From assembly GCA_040754395.1 (NCBI GenBank), contig JBFMCL010000027.1:1-38348 (forward strand): a stretch of 38,348 nucleotides of DNA, read 5' to 3'. Made by a program: the position numbers and the translations under genes. The notes beneath the pieces are model-generated. The model was given only the letters and a program-made list of their open reading frames with translations. It was not told the origin of the DNA and did no database searches. The DNA comes from Nitrospirota bacterium. Its GTDB lineage: Bacteria > Nitrospirota > Thermodesulfovibrionia > Thermodesulfovibrionales > SM23-35. Below, piece after piece: positions 285-12,486 of the stretch; positions within the stretch are counted from its first letter, which is position 1; every line of letters starts with the position of its first letter.

Positions 285-604
285 AGATATCTGATGCCTG
301 AGGACATACATATACGCCCGGGGCGTCAGATCCCGGCATCGGAGACTTGTCAACATAAAATAATCTATGAAAAACAATATGATGCAAATTATATTAGCAT
401 TTGCTAATAATTGTGTGGTATATTCTTTTGCTCCGGCTGCTGTTGTGAGTGTGCCGAACAGGGAAACCGTTTTTCCCGCATCATCGGATAATACCAGTGG
501 AACATGACAAATCGCAACATAGCATGGAACTGCATGACATATCCTCAAGAGAATGTCCGGGAGGATGTCCGTGCTGTACGCCCGCGGCAAGAATATACAG
601 AGGC
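285..604. other. Leader region upstream of pilY1
   Basis: Apart from possible upstream in-frame starts of pilY1 (GTG at 449, ATG at 524), no gene is seen here. The stretch around 370-430 is AT-rich and probably holds the operon promoter. A GG...GC pair at 416-432 resembles a sigma-54 site, but its spacing is 11 rather than 10 bases, so I do not call it. No terminator is seen. Confidence 0.4.
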
Positions 605-3600
605 ATGCGCATTATCAGTGTATGGATTTTTCTTTTTCTGTGTGCCATACCTCTCACCTCTTCTGCCGCTTCCATGAAGGATTACTGCATTGTCCCGCCG
701 CATATTGCAAACGCAGGCGTCATGCCGAACATCATGATTGCGTACGAAAATGGAGAGGATGTGCTGAACAGGGCATATCCTGCAGATGAACTGCCCGGAG
801 ACCCCGGCGCCAATTTTGATAAGTCCAGGATACATTACGGTTTCTTTGACAGCGGACCGGATGACCGGTATGCATATGACAGCACGGGAGGCTATTTCAT
901 AAAGAACAATGCGTGCGAAGGAAAAAACTGCTTTGCGGGGGACCTGCTGAACTGGGCAGTCATGAGTTCACTCGATCTTTCAAGAAAGGCTCTCGTCGGT
1001 TTCGGATGGCCGGAACCCGGGACAGATTCGGGAGCAGGCAATGTATTTACATATAATGGCATCCTGTACAGTCTCGGGCAGGCACACGCTGCGACTGTCA
1101 GCGGAAGGGACCCATTCAGCGGGATTGAATATACCTTCTGTCTTTCAGGTTCTGACGGGTCAAATCCTACAGGCATACAGATAAGTCTCGGAAATCTTTC
1201 TCACTGTAACGCCGGCGTTGTGCTGGTGGACGGCAAAGTGAGAATACGGTATACCAGCGAAGACAGGACAGGTTTCCTGCAGCAATTTGCAGACAAAGAT
1301 CAGGATTATCAGTATGACATGAATGCTCCGCGATTCGGGATCAGAAGATGGAACAGCGGAAAGGATACGCAGCAAGACATCCCAAGAGATTCTCCTCCCA
1401 TGACCGCTTCAGAGAGGGAACAATACTTCAGGAATCTGCTCACCGCTGCGTCCGCATGGCCTCCCGCTGATCCTCAGACTCCATATCTCGCTGACATGAT
1501 GCGGGAAATGGTGCACTATTTTACGGGATCAGCATCTTCATACAGTGATAATGACGGGTATTCCCAGACCCCCTATGCGTGGGCAGACGACCCTGCGAGG
1601 GCGTGCAGGAAGACGTTTGCAGTATTTGTGACAACAGGCAGACACCCCGGATCGGACAGCAGCAGGCTTTTGCCCCTTCCCGCGGCATGCGCTTCACTGC
1701 GTTATCCTGATGCCTTTCCGGCAAATGCATGCTATGCATACCATAAAGACCTCTATCCTGACGATGGTATCCGGCCGCGGCAGAACGTAAGTACCTATAT
1801 CATCCATACGGCATATTATGGCAGCAGCGCTGATAATGAAAAGATGCTTGCGTATGCTGCGGCTGTCAGCGACGGGGAATATTTCAGAGTGAATCAGCCT
1901 GAAAAACTCGGAGAAGCCTTGTCAGCCGCTCTGAATGATATTCTGAAACGGATGGCTTCGGGTACCGCGTCCTCTATGCTTTCCTCCGGAGAGGGAAGCG
2001 GTGCCAATATGCTGCAGGCGCTTTTTTATCCGCGTACACCAATAAGTCCGACGGGAATGTTTGACAGAAAGGTTTCATGGATCGGGAGGCTGCAGAATTT
2101 GTGGTATCATGTTGACCCGTTTTTTGTGAAGAGCAGCATACGTGAGGATTCCAACGGTGACCGGATCCTCGACCTCTCCAATGATTATATTGTGCAGACC
2201 TATTACGATTCTTTGGAGAATGCTACGAAAACGGCTCTTTACGCTGACCTTGACGGCAACGGGGTGGCCGACAGCGCAGCACCTCTCAAGACAAAGCATC
2301 TGGAGACCCTCACAAGCCTCTGGGAAAGCGGCCTTGAACTATGGAAAAGGGATCTTGCAGTATCTCCGCGGGTTATTTACATTCCGGCTTCTGTAACAGG
2401 GGCGGGCACCCATACGAATCTGTCCCTCTTTTCGACCGGCAATGCATCTTCACTAAGGCCATATCTGGATCTGCCGGAATACGATTCTGACAGAGACGGG
2501 TTCAGGGACGGAGACCTCAATCATGACGGGATCGTGAACGATAATGATGCCAGAGTGCTGATTCAGTATATTCAGGGCGAGGATTTCTCATCGGCAAATC
2601 CTTCCTGCACATGGCTGAGGTCGAGAACTGTCGGAGTTGATCTGAACGGGGATGGCGATTCGGACGACACAGGGGAATCTCCGAAGGTATGGAGACTCGG
2701 AGATATTGTGAATTCTACCCCCAGGGTTGCGTCATGGATACCGCTGAACTCCTATCATACGGCCTATGGCGACACAACCTATGGAATGCAAAACATGATG
2801 CCGCATCCTGAGGAACCTGCTGATCCGGATCATTTTGTTACGAGCGCGCAATACAGGAACAGAGGGATGGTCTTTGCCGGTGCAAATGACGGGATGCTCC
2901 ATGCATTTAAACTCGGAAGACTGGAATTCAGCGGTGCGTGGAAGAATTCGGAGACAAAAAAGGCAAGACTGAGGAATCCCGATCCCTCTACACCACTGGG
3001 ACATGAGATGTGGGCATTCATTCCCAGGAACGTGCTTCCATATCTCAAATACCTCGCTGATCCCGGGTATTGCCATATCTATACAGTTGACCTGAGTCCG
3101 TATCTCTTCGATGCGAGTATCAACGGCTCTCCGGGAGGCAAAAAAACCGCAGACAGCTGGCGGACTGTGCTCATAGGGGGTATGAGATTCGGCGGGGCAT
3201 GCAGGGATGCGGACAGTCAATGCAATTTGCCTTCCGGCGGAAGCTCTGACTGTGTGAAGTCTCCGGTCAGAGGCAATGGGTTGTCTTCCTACTTTGCACT
3301 GGACATCACTGATCAGACACATCCCCGCCTCCTCTGGGAATTTACCGATCCAAGGCTTGGCTTTACCACGACAGGGCCAGCGGTGGTAAGAATCGGAGAG
3401 GACAGAGATAAAAACGGCGAATGGTATGTGGTATTTGGTTCCGGCCCCACCGGTCCGATCAGTACAACAGACCGACAGTTTCTCGGTAATTCAGACCAGA
3501 ACCTCAGCATTTTTATATTGAATTTAAGGGACGGAAGCATGGCAGTTCCCGCAATTGATACGGGAATCCCGAAAGCCTTTGCGGGTTCGATGATGAACGC

Positions 3601-4453
3601 TGCGCACGACAGCAACATGGATTATCAGGATGACGTGCTGTATGTCCCCTACACGAAAAAAGCTGCTGACAACACATGGACAGATGGAGGCATCCTCAGA
3701 ATTCTGACCAACGGAACTGTACCGTCAGGCTGGTCCCTGAGCACGCTGATTGATTTTACCGGGGGTGAAGGCGGACCTGTGACTTCATCGGTTGCCAGGC
3801 TCCAGAACAGGAAAAAAGGGAATTTATGGCTTTATTTCGGAACAGGGAGGTATTTTTTTTCACAGGCCTCTGCAGCAGATGATCAGACGAAGCAGCGGCG
3901 TATTTTTGGCATTAAGGACCCATGTTTCTCGATTGCCGGGTTCGCCTCAGGGTGCACTTCCGGTATACGCGGACTGACTGATGTTACCAATACCCCGAAC
4001 CTGAAGGATGAACCTGAGAACGGGTGGTTTATCAATCTTGACCCTGCCGGGAGTTTTACTTACCTGGAAGGCATCCCTTCTGCATCGGTGACAAAAAAAT
4101 ACCGGGCGGAAAGGGTAATCACAGACCCTGTATCAACAGGGTCCGGCCTTGTGTTTTTCACCTCCTTTAAGCCTTATGGAGACGCATGTTCCCTTGGAGG
4201 AAAAAGCTTTGTCTGGGCGGTCAAATACGATACCGGAGGATATGCGGGGGCACTGCTCAGGGGCAAAGCACTTCTTCAGACTTCGACGGGAAGCATTGAG
4301 CAAAAAGACCTTGGAACCGCGTTTTCCCCCTCGGATATGTCAGGAGGACGAAAGTCTTCCGCTATAGAGGGGGCACCACCTACCGCGCAGGGGCTCTCTG
4401 TAATCGCTCCCCCGCCTCCGGTGAAACGGGTACTGCACATGAGGGAAAAATGA
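605..4453 (+). CDS. pilY1: PilY1-type pilus tip adhesin/assembly protein
   Basis: About 1282 residues. The ATG at 605 is chosen because it opens a clear Sec signal peptide (MRIISVWIFLFLCAIPLTSSAAS); in-frame starts at 449 and 524 would place it internally. An RBS-like AGAGG at 599-603 sits very close, so the start is not certain. The N-terminal half has a von Willebrand A-like look (FAVFVTTG, then SDGEYFRVNQPEKLGEAL). Acidic Ca-binding-type loops occur near residues 628-650 (dockerin-like DLNHDGIVNDNDARVLIQYI) and 679. The conserved PilY1 C-terminal beta-propeller follows: GDIVNSTP, VFAGANDGMLHAF near 748, the calcium loop DSNMDYQDD near 1001, and YFGTGRYF. PilY1 proteins cap type IV pili and, with minor pilins, prime assembly and adhesion. 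First gene of the minor-pilin operon; its stop overlaps fimT (ATGA). Confidence 0.93.
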   Translation: MRIISVWIFLFLCAIPLTSSAASMKDYCIVPPHIANAGVMPNIMIAYENGEDVLNRAYPADELPGDPGANFDKSRIHYGFFDSGPDDRYAYDSTGGYFIKNNACEGKNCFAGDLLNWAVMSSLDLSRKALVGFGWPEPGTDSGAGNVFTYNGILYSLGQAHAATVSGRDPFSGIEYTFCLSGSDGSNPTGIQISLGNLSHCNAGVVLVDGKVRIRYTSEDRTGFLQQFADKDQDYQYDMNAPRFGIRRWNSGKDTQQDIPRDSPPMTASEREQYFRNLLTAASAWPPADPQTPYLADMMREMVHYFTGSASSYSDNDGYSQTPYAWADDPARACRKTFAVFVTTGRHPGSDSSRLLPLPAACASLRYPDAFPANACYAYHKDLYPDDGIRPRQNVSTYIIHTAYYGSSADNEKMLAYAAAVSDGEYFRVNQPEKLGEALSAALNDILKRMASGTASSMLSSGEGSGANMLQALFYPRTPISPTGMFDRKVSWIGRLQNLWYHVDPFFVKSSIREDSNGDRILDLSNDYIVQTYYDSLENATKTALYADLDGNGVADSAAPLKTKHLETLTSLWESGLELWKRDLAVSPRVIYIPASVTGAGTHTNLSLFSTGNASSLRPYLDLPEYDSDRDGFRDGDLNHDGIVNDNDARVLIQYIQGEDFSSANPSCTWLRSRTVGVDLNGDGDSDDTGESPKVWRLGDIVNSTPRVASWIPLNSYHTAYGDTTYGMQNMMPHPEEPADPDHFVTSAQYRNRGMVFAGANDGMLHAFKLGRLEFSGAWKNSETKKARLRNPDPSTPLGHEMWAFIPRNVLPYLKYLADPGYCHIYTVDLSPYLFDASINGSPGGKKTADSWRTVLIGGMRFGGACRDADSQCNLPSGGSSDCVKSPVRGNGLSSYFALDITDQTHPRLLWEFTDPRLGFTTTGPAVVRIGEDRDKNGEWYVVFGSGPTGPISTTDRQFLGNSDQNLSIFILNLRDGSMAVPAIDTGIPKAFAGSMMNAAHDSNMDYQDDVLYVPYTKKAADNTWTDGGILRILTNGTVPSGWSLSTLIDFTGGEGGPVTSSVARLQNRKKGNLWLYFGTGRYFFSQASAADDQTKQRRIFGIKDPCFSIAGFASGCTSGIRGLTDVTNTPNLKDEPENGWFINLDPAGSFTYLEGIPSASVTKKYRAERVITDPVSTGSGLVFFTSFKPYGDACSLGGKSFVWAVKYDTGGYAGALLRGKALLQTSTGSIEQKDLGTAFSPSDMSGGRKSSAIEGAPPTAQGLSVIAPPPPVKRVLHMREK

Positions 4454-4941
4454 GCAATCATCAGGGAATCACATTTATTGAGCTCGTGATCGCACTCTCC
4501 GTCGCTGCGGTACTTGTGGGAGTTTTCGGATTTTCATTCCACGGATGGATGGGGAGTTACGAGGTGGAGAGCCAGGTGAAAAACGTCTATGCGGATATGA
4601 TGAATGCACGGGCGCGGGCCATGGATACAAACAGGACTTACTATATCACCATTACCCCCGATCATTATCAGATATGCGAGGATGCGGATGACAATGAGCA
4701 ATATGAACCTGATATCGACAGCATACGCGGGGTTGTCAATACGAAGACGCTCAGATATCCGTCTTTATGGACGGGAATCATACGCGTTGACCACCGTGGC
4801 CTGGTTTCCGGGAATCCCGGACCAAACGGGACTATCCGTTTCAGCAACGAATCGAGCGAGCCGGATTACGACTGTATCGTATTCTTTGCGACACGAATCA
4901 ATATCGGGAAATGGGATGGCAAAAACTGTATTGTTCAATGA
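4450..4941 (+). CDS. fimT: FimT/GspH-type minor prepilin
   Basis: 163 residues. It starts with a six-residue leader and a class III prepilin cleavage site (MSNHQG before ITFIELVIAL), with the conserved Glu at mature position 5 and a single hydrophobic helix to about residue 30. A GspH/FimT-like beta-rich domain follows (ARARAMDTNRTYYITI, GTIRFSN). It would be processed by the PilD peptidase and, with PilV, PilW, PilX and PilY1, form the priming complex at the pilus tip. The ATG overlaps the pilY1 stop by four bases, so translation is probably coupled. FimU or a type II pseudopilin GspH are alternative names. Confidence 0.88.
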   Translation: MSNHQGITFIELVIALSVAAVLVGVFGFSFHGWMGSYEVESQVKNVYADMMNARARAMDTNRTYYITITPDHYQICEDADDNEQYEPDIDSIRGVVNTKTLRYPSLWTGIIRVDHRGLVSGNPGPNGTIRFSNESSEPDYDCIVFFATRINIGKWDGKNCIVQ

Positions 4942-5383
4942 GAAGGGAGTCACGCTCGTTGAGATAGTGATCTCATGTGTGGTAATGCTTCTGGTATCTC
5001 TTGCCCTGATGCAGACTGCATTGCTCGGAATCGAAACAAATTTCAGGAATATCCTGAGGGATGGGGCAGTAAGGATCGGTGAGATGAGGATGCACGAAGC
5101 CAGAAACCTCTGTTTTGCCAGGCTTTTAAGGGATGTGGAGGATGACATTCCTGATGACAATCTTGTGCTGGATGCATGCCAGAGGCCTCCAGTGAATGAT
5201 CCGCGGTCCTATCCTGTGAAAGTGATAAGACCTTTCCGGAATATGACGAATTTCAGTTATGGAACCAGGAGGGAAGTGACAGACATGGGAGCGGATATGA
5301 AACAGGTCACGATTCTCGTAAGGTGGGTGTATAAAGACGAGTGTTCAACCCATTCAGTCTCCTCTATAGTGAGAAACAATTGA
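4916..5383 (+). CDS. pilV: PilV-like minor prepilin
   Basis: 155 residues. The start at 4916 gives MAKTVLFNEKG before VTLVEIVIS, a prepilin peptidase site with Glu at mature position 5, preceded by a GGGAAATGGG stretch as RBS. It overlaps the end of fimT by 26 bases. The helix runs to about residue 35; the remaining globular domain is poorly conserved and ends with a short strand-rich segment (KQVTILVRWVYKDECSTHSV). The assignment to PilV rests on the prepilin motif, size and position between fimT and pilW, not on a diagnostic motif. Confidence 0.8.
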   Translation: MAKTVLFNEKGVTLVEIVISCVVMLLVSLALMQTALLGIETNFRNILRDGAVRIGEMRMHEARNLCFARLLRDVEDDIPDDNLVLDACQRPPVNDPRSYPVKVIRPFRNMTNFSYGTRREVTDMGADMKQVTILVRWVYKDECSTHSVSSIVRNN

Positions 5384-6525
5384 TCAGGCATAATGAAGGG
5401 TTCACGCTGACTGAGCTTCTGATTACCATGGCTGTCCTGGTGCTTGTTCTCAGCGCAGCCTCCGAAGTTTTTACCGGCCTTTTGACGCATTTCAAACAGC
5501 AGGGAAAAATCGCGGAATCGAATATGGAAGGGAATGTCGGGCTCGAGATGATGAGGCGGGATTTAGGGCATGCGGGCTACGGCCTGCCGTGGTCCTTTCA
5601 GAATTCCATTCACTACAGCGAGGCTTCAGGGCATCCGGCACGCAAATACAATGATGCACCCGGAAGTCCTCCCCGTGCTTTCGTGAGCGGAAATAATACG
5701 GGCCCCAACGGTTCTGACTATCTGGTGATAAAGGCGACAAATGTTGCACGGAATAAAACATGCGACAAATGGACCGTGCTGGGACCTCTGCCGTTTGTTG
5801 CACCCTATAATCCCCGTTCCTGGATTCCGCAGACAGAGAACCTTGCCAAGTCTGATAGGGTTATCATCATTGCCCCGGGTGATACAGGTTTCAGCCGTTC
5901 CCTTGTGATGAGCGCAGAGGTGTTTTCAACCAATTATGGCAGTATCATGAATTCGCCATGGTCTCCTTCCGAGACTGCCGGGACCAGGATAGTGTATGGG
6001 GTTGACCCTGATACGGTGTTGAGGATGCCGTTCAACAGGGCTGATTACTTCATCTCACAGGCAAACGTTCCGAAAAAGTGCGCACCCAATACGGGTGTGC
6101 TTGAAAAGGCCATCATCAATCAGGGTAACGGGGGACAGAGTTTTTTGCCCATTCTGGACTGCGTTGCCGACTTTCAGGTGATTTACCGGCTTGATATGGA
6201 CGGGGACGGAGCAGCAGAGACAGAGTCGGATGCTGATGGAAGTGTTGTCCTGAGTGCTGATGGAAATGCAAATGCCGCATCTGTCATGTCGACTTTTCAG
6301 AATGCCGCTGACCTCAGGCGCCGTCTCAGGGAAATAAGGGTATATATCCTTGCTCATGAAGGGCAGAAAGATGCACATTATGGTTATCCGGAGAATACGA
6401 TTACAGTGGGAGAATATGGGCTGGGAAGTTCATTTAAACTCAATGAGAAGATAGGAACAGAGTGGACGCACTACCGGTGGAGAGTATATTCCATCATCGT
6501 CAAGCCGGGGAACCTCATGGGGTGA
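5380..6525 (+). CDS. pilW: PilW-like minor prepilin
   Basis: I prefer the TTG at 5380: it overlaps the pilV stop (TTGA) and gives a short prepilin leader, MIRHNEG before FTLTELLITMAV, with Glu at mature position 5. This makes 381 residues; a GTG at 5341 in the same frame would add 13 and overlap pilV by 43 bases. Features typical of PilW are the MMRRDLGHAGYGLP segment after the helix, a large variable beta-rich domain, and a C-terminal LRRRLREIRVYILAHEG stretch. An acidic loop (LDMDGDGAAETESDADG) near residue 270 could bind calcium. It acts in the tip/priming complex of the type IV pilus. Confidence 0.85.
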   Translation: MIRHNEGFTLTELLITMAVLVLVLSAASEVFTGLLTHFKQQGKIAESNMEGNVGLEMMRRDLGHAGYGLPWSFQNSIHYSEASGHPARKYNDAPGSPPRAFVSGNNTGPNGSDYLVIKATNVARNKTCDKWTVLGPLPFVAPYNPRSWIPQTENLAKSDRVIIIAPGDTGFSRSLVMSAEVFSTNYGSIMNSPWSPSETAGTRIVYGVDPDTVLRMPFNRADYFISQANVPKKCAPNTGVLEKAIINQGNGGQSFLPILDCVADFQVIYRLDMDGDGAAETESDADGSVVLSADGNANAASVMSTFQNAADLRRRLREIRVYILAHEGQKDAHYGYPENTITVGEYGLGSSFKLNEKIGTEWTHYRWRVYSIIVKPGNLMG

Positions 6526-6559
6526 GTATGCCTGTCGTACATGCAGGAAGAGAAAACTT

Positions 6560-7267
6560 ATGGGAGTGACGGACAAACAGACAGCAGGGAACAATTGCAC
6601 ATCTTGCGGAAGGCTGATCCTTCAGTCTGAAAAAGGGATTGCGCTAATGATGGTACTTGTGCTGTCTGCAGTTGTCCTCGCAACAATCGCAGGTCTGGTG
6701 TATATCATAACTTCCGGTACGCAGATCTCCGGCATCCAGAAACGATACAGGACTGCGCTTGAGGCAGGCATCGGAGGGGCCGGGATTGCCAGTGAGATCA
6801 TAGGGCTCAGGGGAGAAAAATCTTCCCTGGAGGCCTTAGCGAAATCTCTGTCCTCGATCGACCTTTCCATCACGACCGCTGATTCGTGTACTGCACTTTC
6901 TTCTGCCACCTTCTGCAGCGCATTCGGCAGTTACACGGGAATAGTCACAAAATTACATGTGCCGACAGCCTGCTGGTCAGGGTGCGATTACTCACGTATA
7001 ATTGATCCTGCCAGCAGAGCAACGTATGACTTCAGCTTTCGGCTGCAGGGAACTCCTTTCCCGTATCACGTGTACGCAAAAGTCGTGGATACCGTGCCGG
7101 GCAATACCGGCGGGGATGAGGATCTGGTCAAGTCCGGGGTAGTATCAGCGCACTCAGGCGAGGTTGTGGTAATGACGATCCCGTATCTGTATACCATTGA
7201 GGTGAATGCAGAGAATTCCGCCAACACTTCTGAAAAGGCCAGGCTGTCGATCCTCTATCAATACTGA
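6560..7267 (+). CDS. pilX: PilX-like minor prepilin
   Basis: 235 residues. The ATG at 6560 follows AGGAAGAG at good spacing. A 26-residue leader ends in EKG before IALMMVLVLSAVVLATIAGLVYI; the site lacks the usual Glu at mature position 5, as in GspK-type prepilins. The hydrophobic helix continues into a globular domain with several cysteines (CTALSSATFC, CWSGC) that may form disulfides, as described for PilX. It is the last gene of the pilus operon, 34 bases after pilW. A CXXC pair in the leader (CTSC, residues 13-16) is unusual. Identification rests on operon position and architecture. Confidence 0.72.
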   Translation: MGVTDKQTAGNNCTSCGRLILQSEKGIALMMVLVLSAVVLATIAGLVYIITSGTQISGIQKRYRTALEAGIGGAGIASEIIGLRGEKSSLEALAKSLSSIDLSITTADSCTALSSATFCSAFGSYTGIVTKLHVPTACWSGCDYSRIIDPASRATYDFSFRLQGTPFPYHVYAKVVDTVPGNTGGDEDLVKSGVVSAHSGEVVVMTIPYLYTIEVNAENSANTSEKARLSILYQY

Positions 7268-7356: not shown

Positions 7357-8721
7357 ATGTCTATTACTGCAAGGCACAAGAAACGGAAAGAGGACAACCA
7401 GTCAGTTGCAACGAAGATAATACTGGACAGCATCGCTGACGGGGTCTTTACGGTTGACAAGAACTGGAATATTACCTCTTTCAACCGCGCCGCAGAAAGG
7501 ATTACCGGGATTCAATCAAGCGAAGCGATCGGCCGCAAGTGCTTCAATGTCTTTCACGCGAATATCTGTCAGACCGCGTGTGCGTTACGCAAAACACTCT
7601 CATCGGGGAAAGAGATCATTGACCTCCCGGTGAATATCCTGAATTACGAAGGCAGCATCATTCCCATTTCTGTCAGCACGGCACTTCTGAAGGACGAAAC
7701 CGGCAGTATCATCGGGGGAGTGGAGACCTTCCGTGACCTTTCGACATTTGAAGCCCTCAGGAAGGAAATTGCGCGACAGTATTCGGTTGCAGACATCATC
7801 AGCAAGAACCATGAAATACAGGCGATTTTCGAAATCCTCCCTCATATCGCCGAAAGCGACAGTACAGTACTTATCCAGGGTGAAAGCGGGACCGGAAAGG
7901 AACTTTTTGCCAGGGCCATCCATAATTTGAGCAAACGTAAGAAGAAACCTTTTGTTGCGGTCAACTGCGGTGCATTGCCGGAAGCCCTCCTTGAATCTGA
8001 GCTGTTCGGGTACAAACGGGGTGCTTTTACAGACGCAAAACAGGATAAGCCGGGCCGGTTTGCGCTTGCCGAGGGTGGCACCCTTTTTCTGGATGAAATC
8101 AGCGACATTCCTTCCCTCTTGCAGGTAAAACTGCTCCGTGTGCTGCAGGAGCGGGAATATGAACCGTTAGGTGCAACTGCGGCATCGAAGGCGGATGTGA
8201 GGATTATCGCCGCCACCAAACAGAACCTTCTGGATATGGTACAACAGAAGATGTTCAGGGAAGACCTTTTTTATCGTCTGAATATTGTACAGATAGTACT
8301 GCCCCCCCTCCGCAGGAGAAAAGAGGATATCCCGCTCCTGGTGAATCATTTCATGAAGAAATTGAATCTTAAGACAGGCAAGAAACTATTATTTGTCTCA
8401 GACGATGTAATCCGCCTCTTAATGGCATACGATTTCCCGGGGAATATCCGGGAACTGGAAAACATCATGGAACATACATTCGTGATGTGCCGCGGAGAGC
8501 GGATTAGTGTCGAGCATCTGCCGAAGGAATTCAGGGAATCGTTCACAAAGGTACCATCAGCGAGAGCCTTGTCGCTGCATGATCGTCATCAGGAGTCTGA
8601 AGAAAGAACCATTCGGGAGGCTCTGGAACGGAATCTTGGCAGACGCTCGGCAACGGCAAAACAGCTGGGTATCCATCCAAGCACACTCTGGAGAAAGATG
8701 AAGCGGTTAAAAATACAGTAG
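7357..8721 (+). CDS. Sigma-54-dependent activator with cysteine-bearing PAS domain
   Basis: 454 residues in three parts. PAS sensor at about 20-135, with cysteines C62, C71 and C75 (CX8CX3C). AAA+ domain at about 147-385: Walker A GESGTGKE 175-182, Walker B LFLDE with D246/E247, and FREDLFYRLN arginine-finger region. Fis-type HTH at the end (TAKQLGIHPSTLWRKMKRL). No receiver domain, so signal input is probably through the PAS. The sigma-54 contact loop reads GAFTDA (222-227) instead of GAFTGA. Two inverted repeats and a -24/-12 promoter lie just downstream, before the two-CW/NifX-like cassette, so this protein most likely activates that cassette. Redox or metal sensing by the cysteines is inference. 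Confidence 0.92.
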   Translation: MSITARHKKRKEDNQSVATKIILDSIADGVFTVDKNWNITSFNRAAERITGIQSSEAIGRKCFNVFHANICQTACALRKTLSSGKEIIDLPVNILNYEGSIIPISVSTALLKDETGSIIGGVETFRDLSTFEALRKEIARQYSVADIISKNHEIQAIFEILPHIAESDSTVLIQGESGTGKELFARAIHNLSKRKKKPFVAVNCGALPEALLESELFGYKRGAFTDAKQDKPGRFALAEGGTLFLDEISDIPSLLQVKLLRVLQEREYEPLGATAASKADVRIIAATKQNLLDMVQQKMFREDLFYRLNIVQIVLPPLRRRKEDIPLLVNHFMKKLNLKTGKKLLFVSDDVIRLLMAYDFPGNIRELENIMEHTFVMCRGERISVEHLPKEFRESFTKVPSARALSLHDRHQESEERTIREALERNLGRRSATAKQLGIHPSTLWRKMKRLKIQ

Positions 8722-8732
8722 ACAAAGGACAG

Positions 8733-8778
8733 TTGCATTTTTGCAATAAAGTGCAATAATAAATTGCAATAATGCAAT
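8733..8778. promoter_or_regulatory. Paired palindromes, likely activator binding sites
   Basis: Two inverted repeats share a TGCAA core: TTGCA-TTTT-TGCAA (8733-8746) and ATTGCA-ATAA-TGCAAT (8763-8778), with a further TGCAATAAT half-site at 8752-8760. They lie 80-125 bases upstream of the -24 element at 8858, the usual place for enhancer sites of sigma-54 activators, and begin 12 bases after the activator gene. That they bind the adjacent regulator is inferred. Confidence 0.7.
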
Positions 8779-8856
8779 ATCTTCTCCTTTCTGTGCTCTG
8801 TCGCATTTCTTCTGCAACTATTTGATAAATAATAATTAAAATTGCTCCTGCCACTC

Positions 8857-8871
8857 TGGCATTGTTTTTGC
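8857..8871 (+). promoter_or_regulatory. Sigma-54 (-24/-12) promoter
   Basis: TGGCATTGTTTTTGC carries the GG (8858-8859) and GC (8870-8871) doublets exactly ten bases apart and matches the TGGCAC-N5-TTGC consensus with C to T as the only difference in the conserved positions. Transcription would begin near 8883 and read through the two-CW/NifX-like/two-CW genes. Confidence 0.82.
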
Positions 8872-9056
8872 CCTATGTATGACAGATACCTTCACATTTG
8901 TACGGGTGGGGCATCGGGATCATGCGATTGTCAGGTGCCTCGGGCCGAAATACAGAGCCGGGAAAGGGGGTGAAAAAAGAAATCAGTGAAACGGCAGAGA
9001 TGCAGAAGATAGACATCTATGAACTCCTTGAAATCAGTGACCCCGAAAGGAGCAAT

Positions 9057-9299
9057 ATGATGATGAAAATGAACTGCTGGGAATACAAGAATTGTGCAGA
9101 TACAGGATGTCCTTCGTTACGTGAAGAGCGGTTTGACGGATTCAACAGCGGAAAAAACGGAGGAAGGATGTGCTGGTATACCAAGAAAATCGCATCCGGG
9201 AACAAGGGGAAAGGCGAACAAGCCGGAAAGTGCTCTCAATGCGATTTCTTTTCCAGGGTAGAACAGGAGGAAAATAGCAACCTTGTGATATTTGTATAG
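9057..9299 (+). CDS. Two-CW domain small cysteine protein (first copy)
   Basis: 80 residues from the ATG at 9057, which follows AAAGGAG. Cysteines at 7, 13, 18, 39, 59 and 62, with the two signature CW pairs (NCWEYKNC and GGRMCW) and a closing CSQCDFF. This pattern matches the two-CW family of short proteins of unknown function, common in anaerobes beside redox regulators. The frame is open back to a TTG at 8898, with a GTG at 8970; a longer form would add up to 53 residues including IDIYELLEISDPE, and cannot be excluded. First gene after the sigma-54 promoter. Metal or Fe-S binding is plausible but inferred from the cysteines only. Confidence 0.8.
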   Translation: MMMKMNCWEYKNCADTGCPSLREERFDGFNSGKNGGRMCWYTKKIASGNKGKGEQAGKCSQCDFFSRVEQEENSNLVIFV

Positions 9300-9359
9300 C
9301 AGAATATCCAACGGGCAGGAAAAACTCGCATGCAGAAACAGCACAGGAGGAGGGACAGG

Positions 9360-9743
9360 ATGAAAATTTGCTTTCCGGTTCTTAAGGATAATGGTTTTGG
9401 AAGCAGAATACACCGGCATTTCGGTTCTGCACCTTTATTTATCATGTTCGAGACTGACAGCAGACAGGTAAACAGTATCAGGAACAGCGACCTGCATCAT
9501 GAATACGGATCCTGCAATCCGATGAAGGCACTGAACAACCAGAAATGTGATGCGGTGGTAGTAAGCGGGATAGGCGCAGGTGCACTGAACAAACTGAACC
9601 GGCTGGGGATCAAGGTGTTTCAGTCTCAGGCACCCACAGTGAAAGAAAATATCGTTTTGCTGGAAGCCCGGAACCTTCCCGAGTTCACCCTGCAGCACTG
9701 CTGCCAGGGCCACAGGCTGAATGCAGCATGCAGGCATTATTGA
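9360..9743 (+). CDS. NifX/NifB-type dinitrogenase cofactor-domain protein
   Basis: 127 residues. The ATG at 9360 follows AGGAGGAGGGACAGG, a strong RBS. The fold signature of the dinitrogenase iron-molybdenum cofactor family is visible: MKICFPV at the start, HFGSAPLFIMFE, then DAVVVSGIGAGALNKLNRLGIKVF. The C-terminus is rich in Cys/His (HCCQGH, AACRHY), which could bind metal. Family members carry or insert metal clusters, but most stand-alone copies outside nif clusters have no known role, and no nif structural genes are in this window. It sits between two two-CW genes, a context suggesting shared metal or redox handling. Confidence 0.85.
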   Translation: MKICFPVLKDNGFGSRIHRHFGSAPLFIMFETDSRQVNSIRNSDLHHEYGSCNPMKALNNQKCDAVVVSGIGAGALNKLNRLGIKVFQSQAPTVKENIVLLEARNLPEFTLQHCCQGHRLNAACRHY

Positions 9744-9779
9744 TCCCTGATTTACAGCGCGAGCGCTTTGGTGGCGAAT

Positions 9780-10040
9780 ATGAACTGCTGGGAATATAAA
9801 AGATGCGGTAAGGAACATCATGATCCGGAAGCTGATGCACCTGCTGTGTGTGCTGCCGCAACAGATGAAAGATTTGACCGTATCAACCATGGCACGAACG
9901 GAGGAAGGGTATGCTGGTTGATCAGGCAGATCCGGGCTGAAAGAAAGAAAAAGAGCATAGCCATAACGCACTGCTGCCGATGCGATTTTTTCAGATTGGT
10001 TGAAAAACAGGAAGGACTGCATTTTTTTGTATCCATGTAG
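9780..10040 (+). CDS. Two-CW domain small cysteine protein (second copy)
   Basis: 86 residues from the ATG at 9780 (in-frame GTG at 9771 and TTG at 9768 would add three or four). It repeats the layout of the first copy: MNCWEYKRCG, a longer insert with one extra cysteine (PAVCAAATDERFD), NGTNGGR-type glycine turn followed by CW, and CCRCDFFRLVEKQE. The two copies flank the NifX-like gene and are probably co-transcribed. Divergence outside the cysteine framework suggests an old duplication rather than a recent one. Function unknown; only a weak GGTGG precedes the start. Confidence 0.8.
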   Translation: MNCWEYKRCGKEHHDPEADAPAVCAAATDERFDRINHGTNGGRVCWLIRQIRAERKKKSIAITHCCRCDFFRLVEKQEGLHFFVSM

Positions 10041-10081: not shown

Positions 10082-12055
10082 TCAGATATGCAGGATGAGA
10101 TTGAGTGCTCCGCCGACAAGGAGGGCAAACGGGATTATCAGCACCATCATGAGCAATGCAGTTTTCAGACCTCTCTCTTTTATCATCATGAAGAAGTTTG
10201 CGAGACACGGTACAAAAAGGGTCAGGGTTACCAGGCTTACAATAATCTGGGTTTCATCCATCAGTCCCTGCCGCGAGAGATCAAACAGGCCTGCTGCGCC
10301 ATAATCTCTTCTGAGGAATCCCATGAGCAACGCCTCGGTTGCACGCGAAGGAAGTCCGAGGAATTGGACAACAAGCGGTGAAGCAGCCTGTTCTATCCAG
10401 CCGAGTATCCTGAACTTGTCAAGGAGAAAAAGGATAAAGGTGCCAAGAACAAAAAGAGGGACAGCTTCCTTTACGTACCATTCTATCCTGCTCAGAGTTT
10501 TCATGATGATGTTCCCCATGGTCGGCTTTCTCAGAGGCGGAAGCTCTACGAAGAAATCAGGTTTTTCCCCGGGCACTACCCGTGAAGCGAGATATCCGGT
10601 CAGGATGAGGACGAGTATCACAGTCCCTGCCCACCAGAGCATCGCCCGCAACGAGAGGGCACCGAGCATGCCGAATATCACCCCGAGCTGTGCCGAACAG
10701 GGAATGGCAAGGGCAATAAGGAAAGTTGCGATTATCCTTTCCCTTGATGTTTCAAGTATCCGGGTTGACATTGTCGCCATGGTCCCGCAGCCGAGACCGA
10801 GCACCATGGGCAGTATTGCTTTGCCGTTCAGTCCAAGATACCGGAATGCTCTGTCAGAGACTACGGCGAGCCGCGGCAGATACCCGCTGTCTTCAAGGAA
10901 TCCGAACGCAAGGAAAAAAGTGGTCGTAATGGGCAGAATAATGCCGAGGGCGTATGTCAGAGCCATAGTAAATACCCCGTACTTTCCGATGAGCATGTCC
11001 TGAAGAAACGATACCGGGATAAGGCCTGTGACGACTTTCTCAACCACCGGGTTGAGATATTTTCCGAAAATAACCTCTTCAAGGAAATCCACAAGAACGC
11101 CTGCACCAAAAACACCGACAAATTCATAGAAACAGAAGATAACAAAGAGCAGTATGGGGAATCCCAGTACAGGGTGCATGGTCCAGCGGTTAAGGGCCTG
11201 CATGAACATGCCGGTCTGCCTCACGCCGCTCCTCTGGACTTTGCCTGTGACATCTTCCGCGAATCTTATCCTGCTCTGCCCGATTAAGGAAGAGATCGGC
11301 TCTTTCAGTTTCAGCTGGGCTTCGTCCCTTATGTCCTCAATCTGCTTGATATGTTCAGCAGAAAGGTTTGTCATGAGCCAATCCTTGAGGCTTTCGTCTC
11401 CCGACAGTATCATCAGGGAGACAGACCGTTTCGAAATATTCACGTCCGGAAGAAGTGCGGAGATTTTCTTTTCGTATTCTTCGATAATGTCGTGGTAACG
11501 TGCGGTTACCGAAGGGATTCTGGCTTTTGCAACGGCCTCCCGCAATCTTTGAATGCCTTTCCTCTGAGGCGCAACGGTGCCGATCACCTCAACGTTCAGG
11601 AGTTCGCCCAGCATCTGATAGTCTATCTCTATGCCCCGCGCCTTTGCTTCATCTTCCATATTGAGATCAAGGATGCAGGGCAATTCCATCTCAGCAAGCT
11701 GTATCAGGAGCATGAGGGCTCTTTTCAGGTTTTTTGCATCTGCAACCACGATAACCGCTTCAGGTCTCTCCTTCAGAAGGATATCCCTGGTGACCTTTTC
11801 ATCCTCGCTCATGGGGATGAGATTGTTCACGCCCGGAGAGTCGATAATAAGAAAATCCCTGTCGCCGATAGGAGCATTTCCATATGATACTTCCACGGTT
11901 GTGCCCGGATAGTTTGAGACCGTCACGTATTTTCCGGTGAGAAGGCCGAAGATGACGCTTTTGCCTACATTCGGGGTGCCGAGAAGAATTACCTTGCTCT
12001 GGATGGTATCCGTACCGCGATGCCGCTGACGCTGTCTTTTTCTCTCTTTTTTCAT
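10082..12055 (-). CDS. feoB: Ferrous iron transporter FeoB
   Basis: 657 residues, start ATG at 12055 overlapping the fur stop (ATGA), with AGGAAG upstream. N-terminal G-protein domain: G1 GTPNVGKS (26-33), G2 region SNYPGTT, G3 DSPG (72-75), G4 NMED (132-135). The C-terminal half is a polytopic membrane domain with the gate-type motifs IPCSAQLGVIFGM and LFVPCLANFF. It imports Fe(II) across the inner membrane under low-oxygen conditions. A basic N-terminal stretch (KKERKRQRQRHR) precedes the G domain. No feoA or feoC is visible next to it. Coupling to fur suggests iron-controlled expression. Confidence 0.94.
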   Translation of the reverse strand: MKKERKRQRQRHRGTDTIQSKVILLGTPNVGKSVIFGLLTGKYVTVSNYPGTTVEVSYGNAPIGDRDFLIIDSPGVNNLIPMSEDEKVTRDILLKERPEAVIVVADAKNLKRALMLLIQLAEMELPCILDLNMEDEAKARGIEIDYQMLGELLNVEVIGTVAPQRKGIQRLREAVAKARIPSVTARYHDIIEEYEKKISALLPDVNISKRSVSLMILSGDESLKDWLMTNLSAEHIKQIEDIRDEAQLKLKEPISSLIGQSRIRFAEDVTGKVQRSGVRQTGMFMQALNRWTMHPVLGFPILLFVIFCFYEFVGVFGAGVLVDFLEEVIFGKYLNPVVEKVVTGLIPVSFLQDMLIGKYGVFTMALTYALGIILPITTTFFLAFGFLEDSGYLPRLAVVSDRAFRYLGLNGKAILPMVLGLGCGTMATMSTRILETSRERIIATFLIALAIPCSAQLGVIFGMLGALSLRAMLWWAGTVILVLILTGYLASRVVPGEKPDFFVELPPLRKPTMGNIIMKTLSRIEWYVKEAVPLFVLGTFILFLLDKFRILGWIEQAASPLVVQFLGLPSRATEALLMGFLRRDYGAAGLFDLSRQGLMDETQIIVSLVTLTLFVPCLANFFMMIKERGLKTALLMMVLIIPFALLVGGALNLILHI

Positions 12056-12486
12056 TTCGTTTTCTTCCTGCATTGCCTGCACAGTCCCCTGATCTCCAGG
12101 GTGTGGTCGGTCCCCGTGAACCCCTGTTTCCTGCAAAGCTTGTCCTGAAGCCTTTCAAGTTCCCTGGAATAAAACTCGATGACATTTCCGCACTCTGTGC
12201 ATAGCATATGATCGTGATGCTTCTGTCCGAAGGTATTTTCATAGATGGTACCGTGTTCGGTTTTGCTGACTTTCGCAATAAGGCCGCATTCGCATAGCAG
12301 GCTGAGAGTCCTGTACACTGACGCCCGTGATGCCTTCGACCCGGTCTCCCGTATCTGCAGATAGAGCGATTCGGGATCAAAGTGGCCGCCGCATGAGAGG
12401 GTTTTCCGGAGAATGACGGAACGCTCCTTGGTGAAGCGTTGCCCCCGGTCCCTGAGAAAATCCGCAAACGTTTTATTCTCTTTCAT
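12052..12486 (-). CDS. fur: Fur-family metalloregulator
   Basis: 144 residues from the ATG at 12486 (MKENKTFADFLRDRGQRFTKER); in-frame starts at 12534 and 12552 give a longer form that does not look like Fur. Winged helix at about 10-85 (SRASVYRTLSLLCECGLI), then the dimerisation domain with HHDHMLCTECG and the C-terminal GLCRQC, the two CXXC pairs of the structural zinc site. Its partner feoB makes iron-responsive Fur more likely than Zur or PerR, but sequence alone does not prove the metal. Its stop overlaps the feoB start. Autoregulation through the palindrome at 12603-12621 is possible. Confidence 0.88.
   Translation of the reverse strand: MKENKTFADFLRDRGQRFTKERSVILRKTLSCGGHFDPESLYLQIRETGSKASRASVYRTLSLLCECGLIAKVSKTEHGTIYENTFGQKHHDHMLCTECGNVIEFYSRELERLQDKLCRKQGFTGTDHTLEIRGLCRQCRKKTK

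Follow-up and report, generated by a model that had tools for sequence, protein, structure and literature searches.

A probable ORP-type sigma-54 regulatory module before a lineage-specific operon of two-CW and NifX-like genes in a Nitrospirota bacterium

Introduction

Activators of sigma-54 RNA polymerase attach to sites upstream of the promoter and remodel the enzyme; at orp, the DNA is bent by IHF. The closest described counterpart of the locus presented here is the ORP (orange protein) cluster of Desulfovibrio vulgaris Hildenborough, DVU2103-DVU2109, with its sigma-54 activator DVU2106 (PMC3897727, PMC4641369, PMC6345978). DVU2106 is listed with GAFTDA (PMC4641369); its palindromic sites lie at -131 (orp1) and -88 (orp2), and functional IHF sites lie between these and the sigma-54 promoters (PMC3897727). 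The ORP complex includes Mrp-type proteins with ferredoxin motifs and a homologue of a Mo-Cu cluster protein, and MrpORP acts in Fe-S biogenesis (PMC6345978).

Our locus lies in a 38,348-nucleotide stretch of DNA (the window), contig C27 of a 2.98-Mb genome that is 99.96% complete. Like the D. vulgaris cluster, it has a one-component sigma-54 activator with a GAFTDA loop encoded beside its targets, and two palindromic sites upstream of a -24/-12 promoter with an IHF site between, these elements being predicted in the window. The window's site pair is centred ~128 upstream of the expected transcription start, compared with the -131 and -88 of the two D. vulgaris operons, and a NifX-like protein is among the targets in both (Orp8 in D. 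vulgaris, a PF02579 protein in the window). However, the D. vulgaris genes form two divergent operons that include Mrp/NBP35 ATPases (Orp3, Orp4 and Orp9), whereas the window has a single operon with two two-CW genes and no Mrp, and its NifX-like protein is of a DUF134-linked subtype, unlike that of the D. vulgaris cluster. The kind of regulator is already known, and what is new is that its usual targets are swapped here for two two-CW proteins and one NifX-like protein. The regulatory module, of known ORP type, is real and well supported, and the operon is lineage-specific; we consider it likely that the locus as a whole is a lineage-specific variant of the ORP-type module, with two-CW proteins recruited into an unusual target operon.

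Results and discussion

Layout of the locus

The features of the locus are as follows, in window coordinates.

7357..8721, + strand: sigma-54 activator, 454 aa, with PAS, AAA+ and Fis-type HTH parts and a GAFTDA loop (Pfam PAS_9, Sigma54_activat, AAA_lid_14, HTH_8)
7396..7803, + strand: PAS sensor domain with three invariant Cys (residues 62, 71 and 75; CX8CX3C)
8733..8746, no strand: palindrome 1, TTGCATTTTTGCAA, predicted activator binding site (UAS)
8764..8777, no strand: palindrome 2, TTGCAATAATGCAA, 31 bp from palindrome 1, predicted activator binding site (UAS)
8815..8827, - strand: predicted IHF site, TATCAAATAGTTG, a perfect match to WATCARN4TTR
8857..8872, + strand: -24/-12 sigma-54 promoter, TGGCATTGTTTTTGCC, transcription start expected near 8883
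9057..9299, + strand: two-CW protein 1, 80 aa, Shine-Dalgarno AAAGGAG, longest ORF from 8898 (NF045718, 52.3 bits)
9360..9743, + strand: NifX-like protein (Nitro_FeMo-Co), 127 aa, C-terminal CCxGH...CxH tail, longest ORF from 9330 (PF02579, 65.3 bits)
about 9780..10040, + strand: two-CW protein 2, 86 aa, longest ORF from 9768 (NF045718, 68.2 bits)

The first palindrome begins 11 bases past the end of the activator gene, and the three cassette genes follow in a single orientation with short gaps (30-60 bases). Their likely starts at 9057, 9360 and about 9780 were placed by Shine-Dalgarno sequences and the starts of orthologues, and with these starts all three genes are shorter than the longest ORFs.

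An earlier note on this DNA had proposed a self-contained sigma-54 module, and most of its parts hold up. The PAS/sigma-54 regulator gene is real, with PAS, Sigma54_activat and Fis-type HTH matched by Pfam; the two TGCAA-type palindromes are exact copies of TTGCA-N4-TGCAA; and the -24/-12 promoter has its GG (8858-8859) and GC (8870-8871) ten bases apart. The self-contained nature of the module is also supported, since regulator, site pair and promoter are co-conserved in three genera and, at some of the loci in other phyla, beyond them. Two readings needed adjustment: the span given, from 8733 onward, contains real elements but omits the regulator itself, and the three genes are real, by the scores listed above, but probably shorter than their longest ORFs.

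Several further observations concern the surroundings. The cassette ends before a convergent feoB (10082-12136, - strand), the one Feo gene identified there; reading by eye also gave a FeoB-like gene near the regulator at another locus (L148), and the proximity of feoB may be chance. Just before the regulator, 449-7267 holds apparently unrelated genes of type IV pili, encoding PilY1-like proteins and proteins with N-methylation motifs. The leader of the first two-CW gene (8883-9056) is ~170 bases, and ~210 in genome G003, which is long for a small gene; no obvious conserved structure was found in it. Scans for sigma-70 promoters and terminators gave no result above chance.

The regulator and its family

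The three PAS cysteines are present in all 97 homologues compared, and GAFTDA replaces GAFTGA in the window regulator and in 73 of these 97. A tree built from 97 regulators groups the window protein in a clade with those of genomes G003 (81% identical) and G012 (support 99), inside an 89-row ingroup of regulators adjoining NifX/Mrp genes that is separated with support 100 from three-Cys PAS paralogues. It is by gene content, GAFTDA, layout and this tree, not by sequence match to DVU2106, that the window regulator is of ORP type. The AlphaFold2 model of the PAS domain (pLDDT 84) has a PAS fold by Foldseek; the Cys loop is its weakest block (pLDDT ~64), and because of this low confidence we claim no geometry for it.

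The family is widespread. Searching 84,980 species genomes with a PAS-domain profile gave at least 548 relatives, and the 80 best of these span many phyla. In another sample, drawn from the single phylum to which Desulforhabdus belongs, 190 of 395 genomes have a match at E<=1e-45. Within the window's own family, the regulator was found in only 3 of 20 genomes. One Desulfobulbaceae genome (BM506, G403) has ~14 strong three-cysteine PAS matches on contigs C55, C69, C76, C39 and C11, several of them in tandem within single open frames.

Palindromes, IHF site and promoter

Among 5000 dinucleotide shuffles of 8722-8897, one exact palindrome arose in 0.76% and two in none. The whole 2.98-Mb genome has three exact copies of TTGCA-N4-TGCAA, two of them the window pair; the third looks like a terminator stem, a GC-rich hairpin then a T run after what resembles a tRNA end. 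No further exact site with a promoter, as expected of another regulon member, was found in this genome. Among 396 genomes of the phylum, a 44-base pattern of two sites at 31-bp spacing is present in just 3 (those of the window, G003 and G012), always directly behind the orthologous regulator. This speaks for specificity and not for independent discovery, since the pattern was derived from these three genomes.

When the regions downstream of 79 homologous regulators were searched without bias for spaced inverted repeats, TTGCA-N4-TGCAA came out as the top dyad, at 14 loci against a shuffled mean of 0, and the same dyad came first upstream of homologous regulators (12 of 78). With one base relaxed, 22 of the 79 have a near-perfect palindrome just downstream. 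In a second set the corresponding figure is 5 of 50, and the dyad ranked second (4 loci vs 5 for the first). Because near-perfect palindromes accompany only these fractions of the regulators, TTGCA-N4-TGCAA belongs to part of the family and is not general.

By itself, the promoter pattern matches the window no more often than chance would allow (5 times vs 3.2 expected), and the call is supported by its position and by its conservation as TGGCATTTTTATTGCA in G003 and TGGTATCCTTTTTGCA in G012. Across the family, 33 of 128 downstream regions have a -24/-12 element scoring at least 9 on the forward strand and none has one on the reverse, with ~1.7 in shuffled sequence. Twelve loci have both palindrome and promoter; the first site lies 124-139 from the promoter in ten of them and 103-104 in the other two, compared with 117 in the window.

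A perfect IHF consensus match has a ~1% chance of arising in this stretch. The G012 orthologue likewise has a perfect match; G304 and G003 each have a single mismatch, a fit that chance alone would give in ~17% of such stretches. Sites, predicted IHF site and -24/-12 promoter stand in order, as in the ORP-type layout, the IHF site being a consensus match only.

This arrangement suggests how the operon may be controlled. The three-cysteine PAS domain of the activator would sense a redox, metal or Fe-S-related signal, and the activator would bind the TTGCA-N4-TGCAA pair that follows its own gene, as their co-conservation suggests. IHF, judging by the consensus site and the D. vulgaris example, would bend the DNA between palindromes and promoter, and the activator's ATPase would open sigma-54 RNA polymerase there, a step established for the family. 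One transcript would presumably cover the first two-CW gene, the NifX-like gene and the second two-CW gene.

Neighbourhoods of related regulators

Relatives of the regulator keep characteristic company. Within 5-6 kb, a NifX-like gene was found at 96 of 130 regulator loci (62/80 and 34/50) and an Mrp ATPase at 58 (28/80 and 30/50); both counts are minima, since flanks often ended at contig ends, and the searches used HMMs built for this analysis with seeds partly from these same loci. No two-CW gene was found near the regulator at any of the 130 loci (80 and 50, non-overlapping), all outside the window's own group. The three-cysteine PAS/sigma-54 activator with its TTGCA-N4-TGCAA site thus adjoins NifX/Mrp clusters across many phyla, well beyond Desulfovibrio. 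The window itself has no Mrp, DUF134 or DUF5320 gene, and because of the missing Mrp match we do not file its operon as an ORP cluster and apply the term ORP-type to the regulatory module only.

The two nearest loci each retain part of the window's arrangement. In G003, the regulator and site pair are followed by the promoter counterpart and one two-CW gene; in G012, the order is a DUF134-like gene, NifX, regulator, sites, promoter and a gene for an FmdB-like zinc ribbon. The G012 regulator (L067:5900-6742) stays in frame, but most of its AAA+ core, from Walker A to the lid, is missing, which may reflect either a genuine deletion or an error of assembly; palindromes and promoter are kept.

These loci bear on whether the two-CW proteins work with this NifX as a dedicated metal-cluster machine, new to science, with the sigma-54 regulator as its specific activator. 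The two-CW genes do flank NifX in the window, the G003 locus keeps everything from regulator to one two-CW gene, and NifX stands beside the regulator in G012. Nevertheless, we find such a machine unlikely: the full cassette of regulator, two-CW, NifX and two-CW was seen in the window only, one genome; two-CW genes are absent from the 130 loci; the sampled two-CW genes elsewhere have no NifX-like gene within ~1.5 kb; and the orthologous NifX genes elsewhere mostly have no two-CW neighbour. A conserved two-CW/NifX unit, tried as a candidate, was rejected, none being found outside the window.

It is less likely still that the regulator activates the first two-CW gene only and that chance insertion put a functionally unrelated NifX-like gene and second two-CW gene downstream of it. 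G003 does have just one two-CW gene behind the promoter, and NifX elsewhere usually comes without this regulator, but the short gaps and single orientation of the window genes speak against this explanation, as do the adjacency of NifX to the same regulator in G012 and of NifX-like genes to the regulator's relatives in general. Some findings also weigh against our preferred reading of a variant ORP-type module: the limited spread of the palindrome, the presence of the regulator in only 3 of 20 genomes of the family, the subtype of the window NifX, and the lack of an Mrp, DUF134 or DUF5320 gene in the window.

The earlier note's larger claims divide along the same line. Conservation beyond close strains, on which it had made its proposal depend, is found for the regulatory module and not for the combined cassette. 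Its idea that two-CW and NifX act together on a metal cluster keeps the link to a NifX-like protein of metal-cluster type, given the 96 of 130 loci, and loses the conserved two-CW/NifX unit, given the 0 of 130. The description as an undescribed system falls, because the regulator's clade adjoins NifX/Mrp (ORP-type) clusters, a kind studied in D. vulgaris (PMC3897727, PMC6345978).

The NifX-like protein

The window NifX-like protein is well above the PF02579 cut-off of 26.3 bits, and its orthologues in the order are 48-64% identical. They share the motifs HFGSAP, HHxxGxCxP and CCxGH...CxH, and this subtype with the CCxGH...CxH tail is found through the order, often beside a DUF134 gene. None of 117 NifX-like ORFs near related regulators has the CCxGH tail; the window NifX, of a DUF134-linked subtype of the PF02579 NifB/NifX family, thus differs from the NifX usually beside these regulators. 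Most relatives come without this regulator and without two-CW genes.

A Nitro_FeMo-Co domain downstream of a sigma-54 activator raises the question of nitrogen fixation, with a NifA-like activator controlling a nitrogenase NifX. The regulator does score to nifA, among many sigma-54 activators, and nif genes are present in the genome: contig C10 (L244:943-9575) has a nif-type cluster with nifD/K/E/N/B-like genes, as read by eye, plus a NifX-like gene (PF02579), and the organism is probably able to fix nitrogen. But that cluster has its own NifX-like and NifB-like genes, and the window NifX-like gene is distinct from its NifX and lies outside it. In addition, the window regulator matches all sigma-54 family models far below their cut-offs, its palindromes are not of NifA type (TGT-N10-ACA), and its relatives adjoin Mrp/ORP genes. 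Nitrogenase regulation, which was rejected as a candidate with the nif-type genes on another contig, is thus a highly improbable role for this locus, and we retain the ORP-type reading.

The two-CW proteins

Both small proteins exceed the NF045718 two_CW cut-off of 35 bits and share the NCWE...C...C...CW...CxxC pattern of that family; typical members are ~100 aa, whereas those of the window are short. They are 43% identical to each other, and two-CW protein 1 is 59% identical to the two-CW protein of G003. Matches above cut-off occur in 52 of 148 sampled Nitrospirota-like genomes. We found no paper on the family, no solved structure and no two-CW protein in viral contigs. An AlphaFold model from an alignment of two rows (pLDDT 59) was set aside.

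The two-CW genes stand where the activator of related loci adjoins NifX-like and Mrp/NBP35 proteins, which are carriers of metal-sulfur clusters. From this we infer that the two-CW proteins most likely bind, shuttle or protect a metal or Fe-S cluster under anaerobic stress. A more specific version, in which they are small metal or Fe-S-cluster carriers able to replace the Mrp/NBP35 ATPases in an ORP-type anaerobic cluster-handling response, is a tentative proposal that we think doubtful at present. If true, it would give a first function to a widespread uncharacterised family, and where a two-CW domain begins a large signalling protein it would serve to sense a metal or cluster. Placement under an ORP-type regulator is a first regulatory context for two-CW genes, and ties them testably to anaerobic metal-cluster handling.

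The two-CW pattern also occurs elsewhere in the window's own genome. At L006-L011 on contigs C1, C2, C3, C8 and C13, it opens large signalling-like proteins (frames of 300-900 aa) or lies close to their start, as if it were a sensor domain. On contig C19, a MerR-like regulator (L245:7681-8232) has a CWEITGC...CWEYNHMIC stretch resembling a two-CW domain in its C-terminal part, and near it, behind genes resembling a membrane redox complex, lies a classical two-CW gene (L245:6357-6638).
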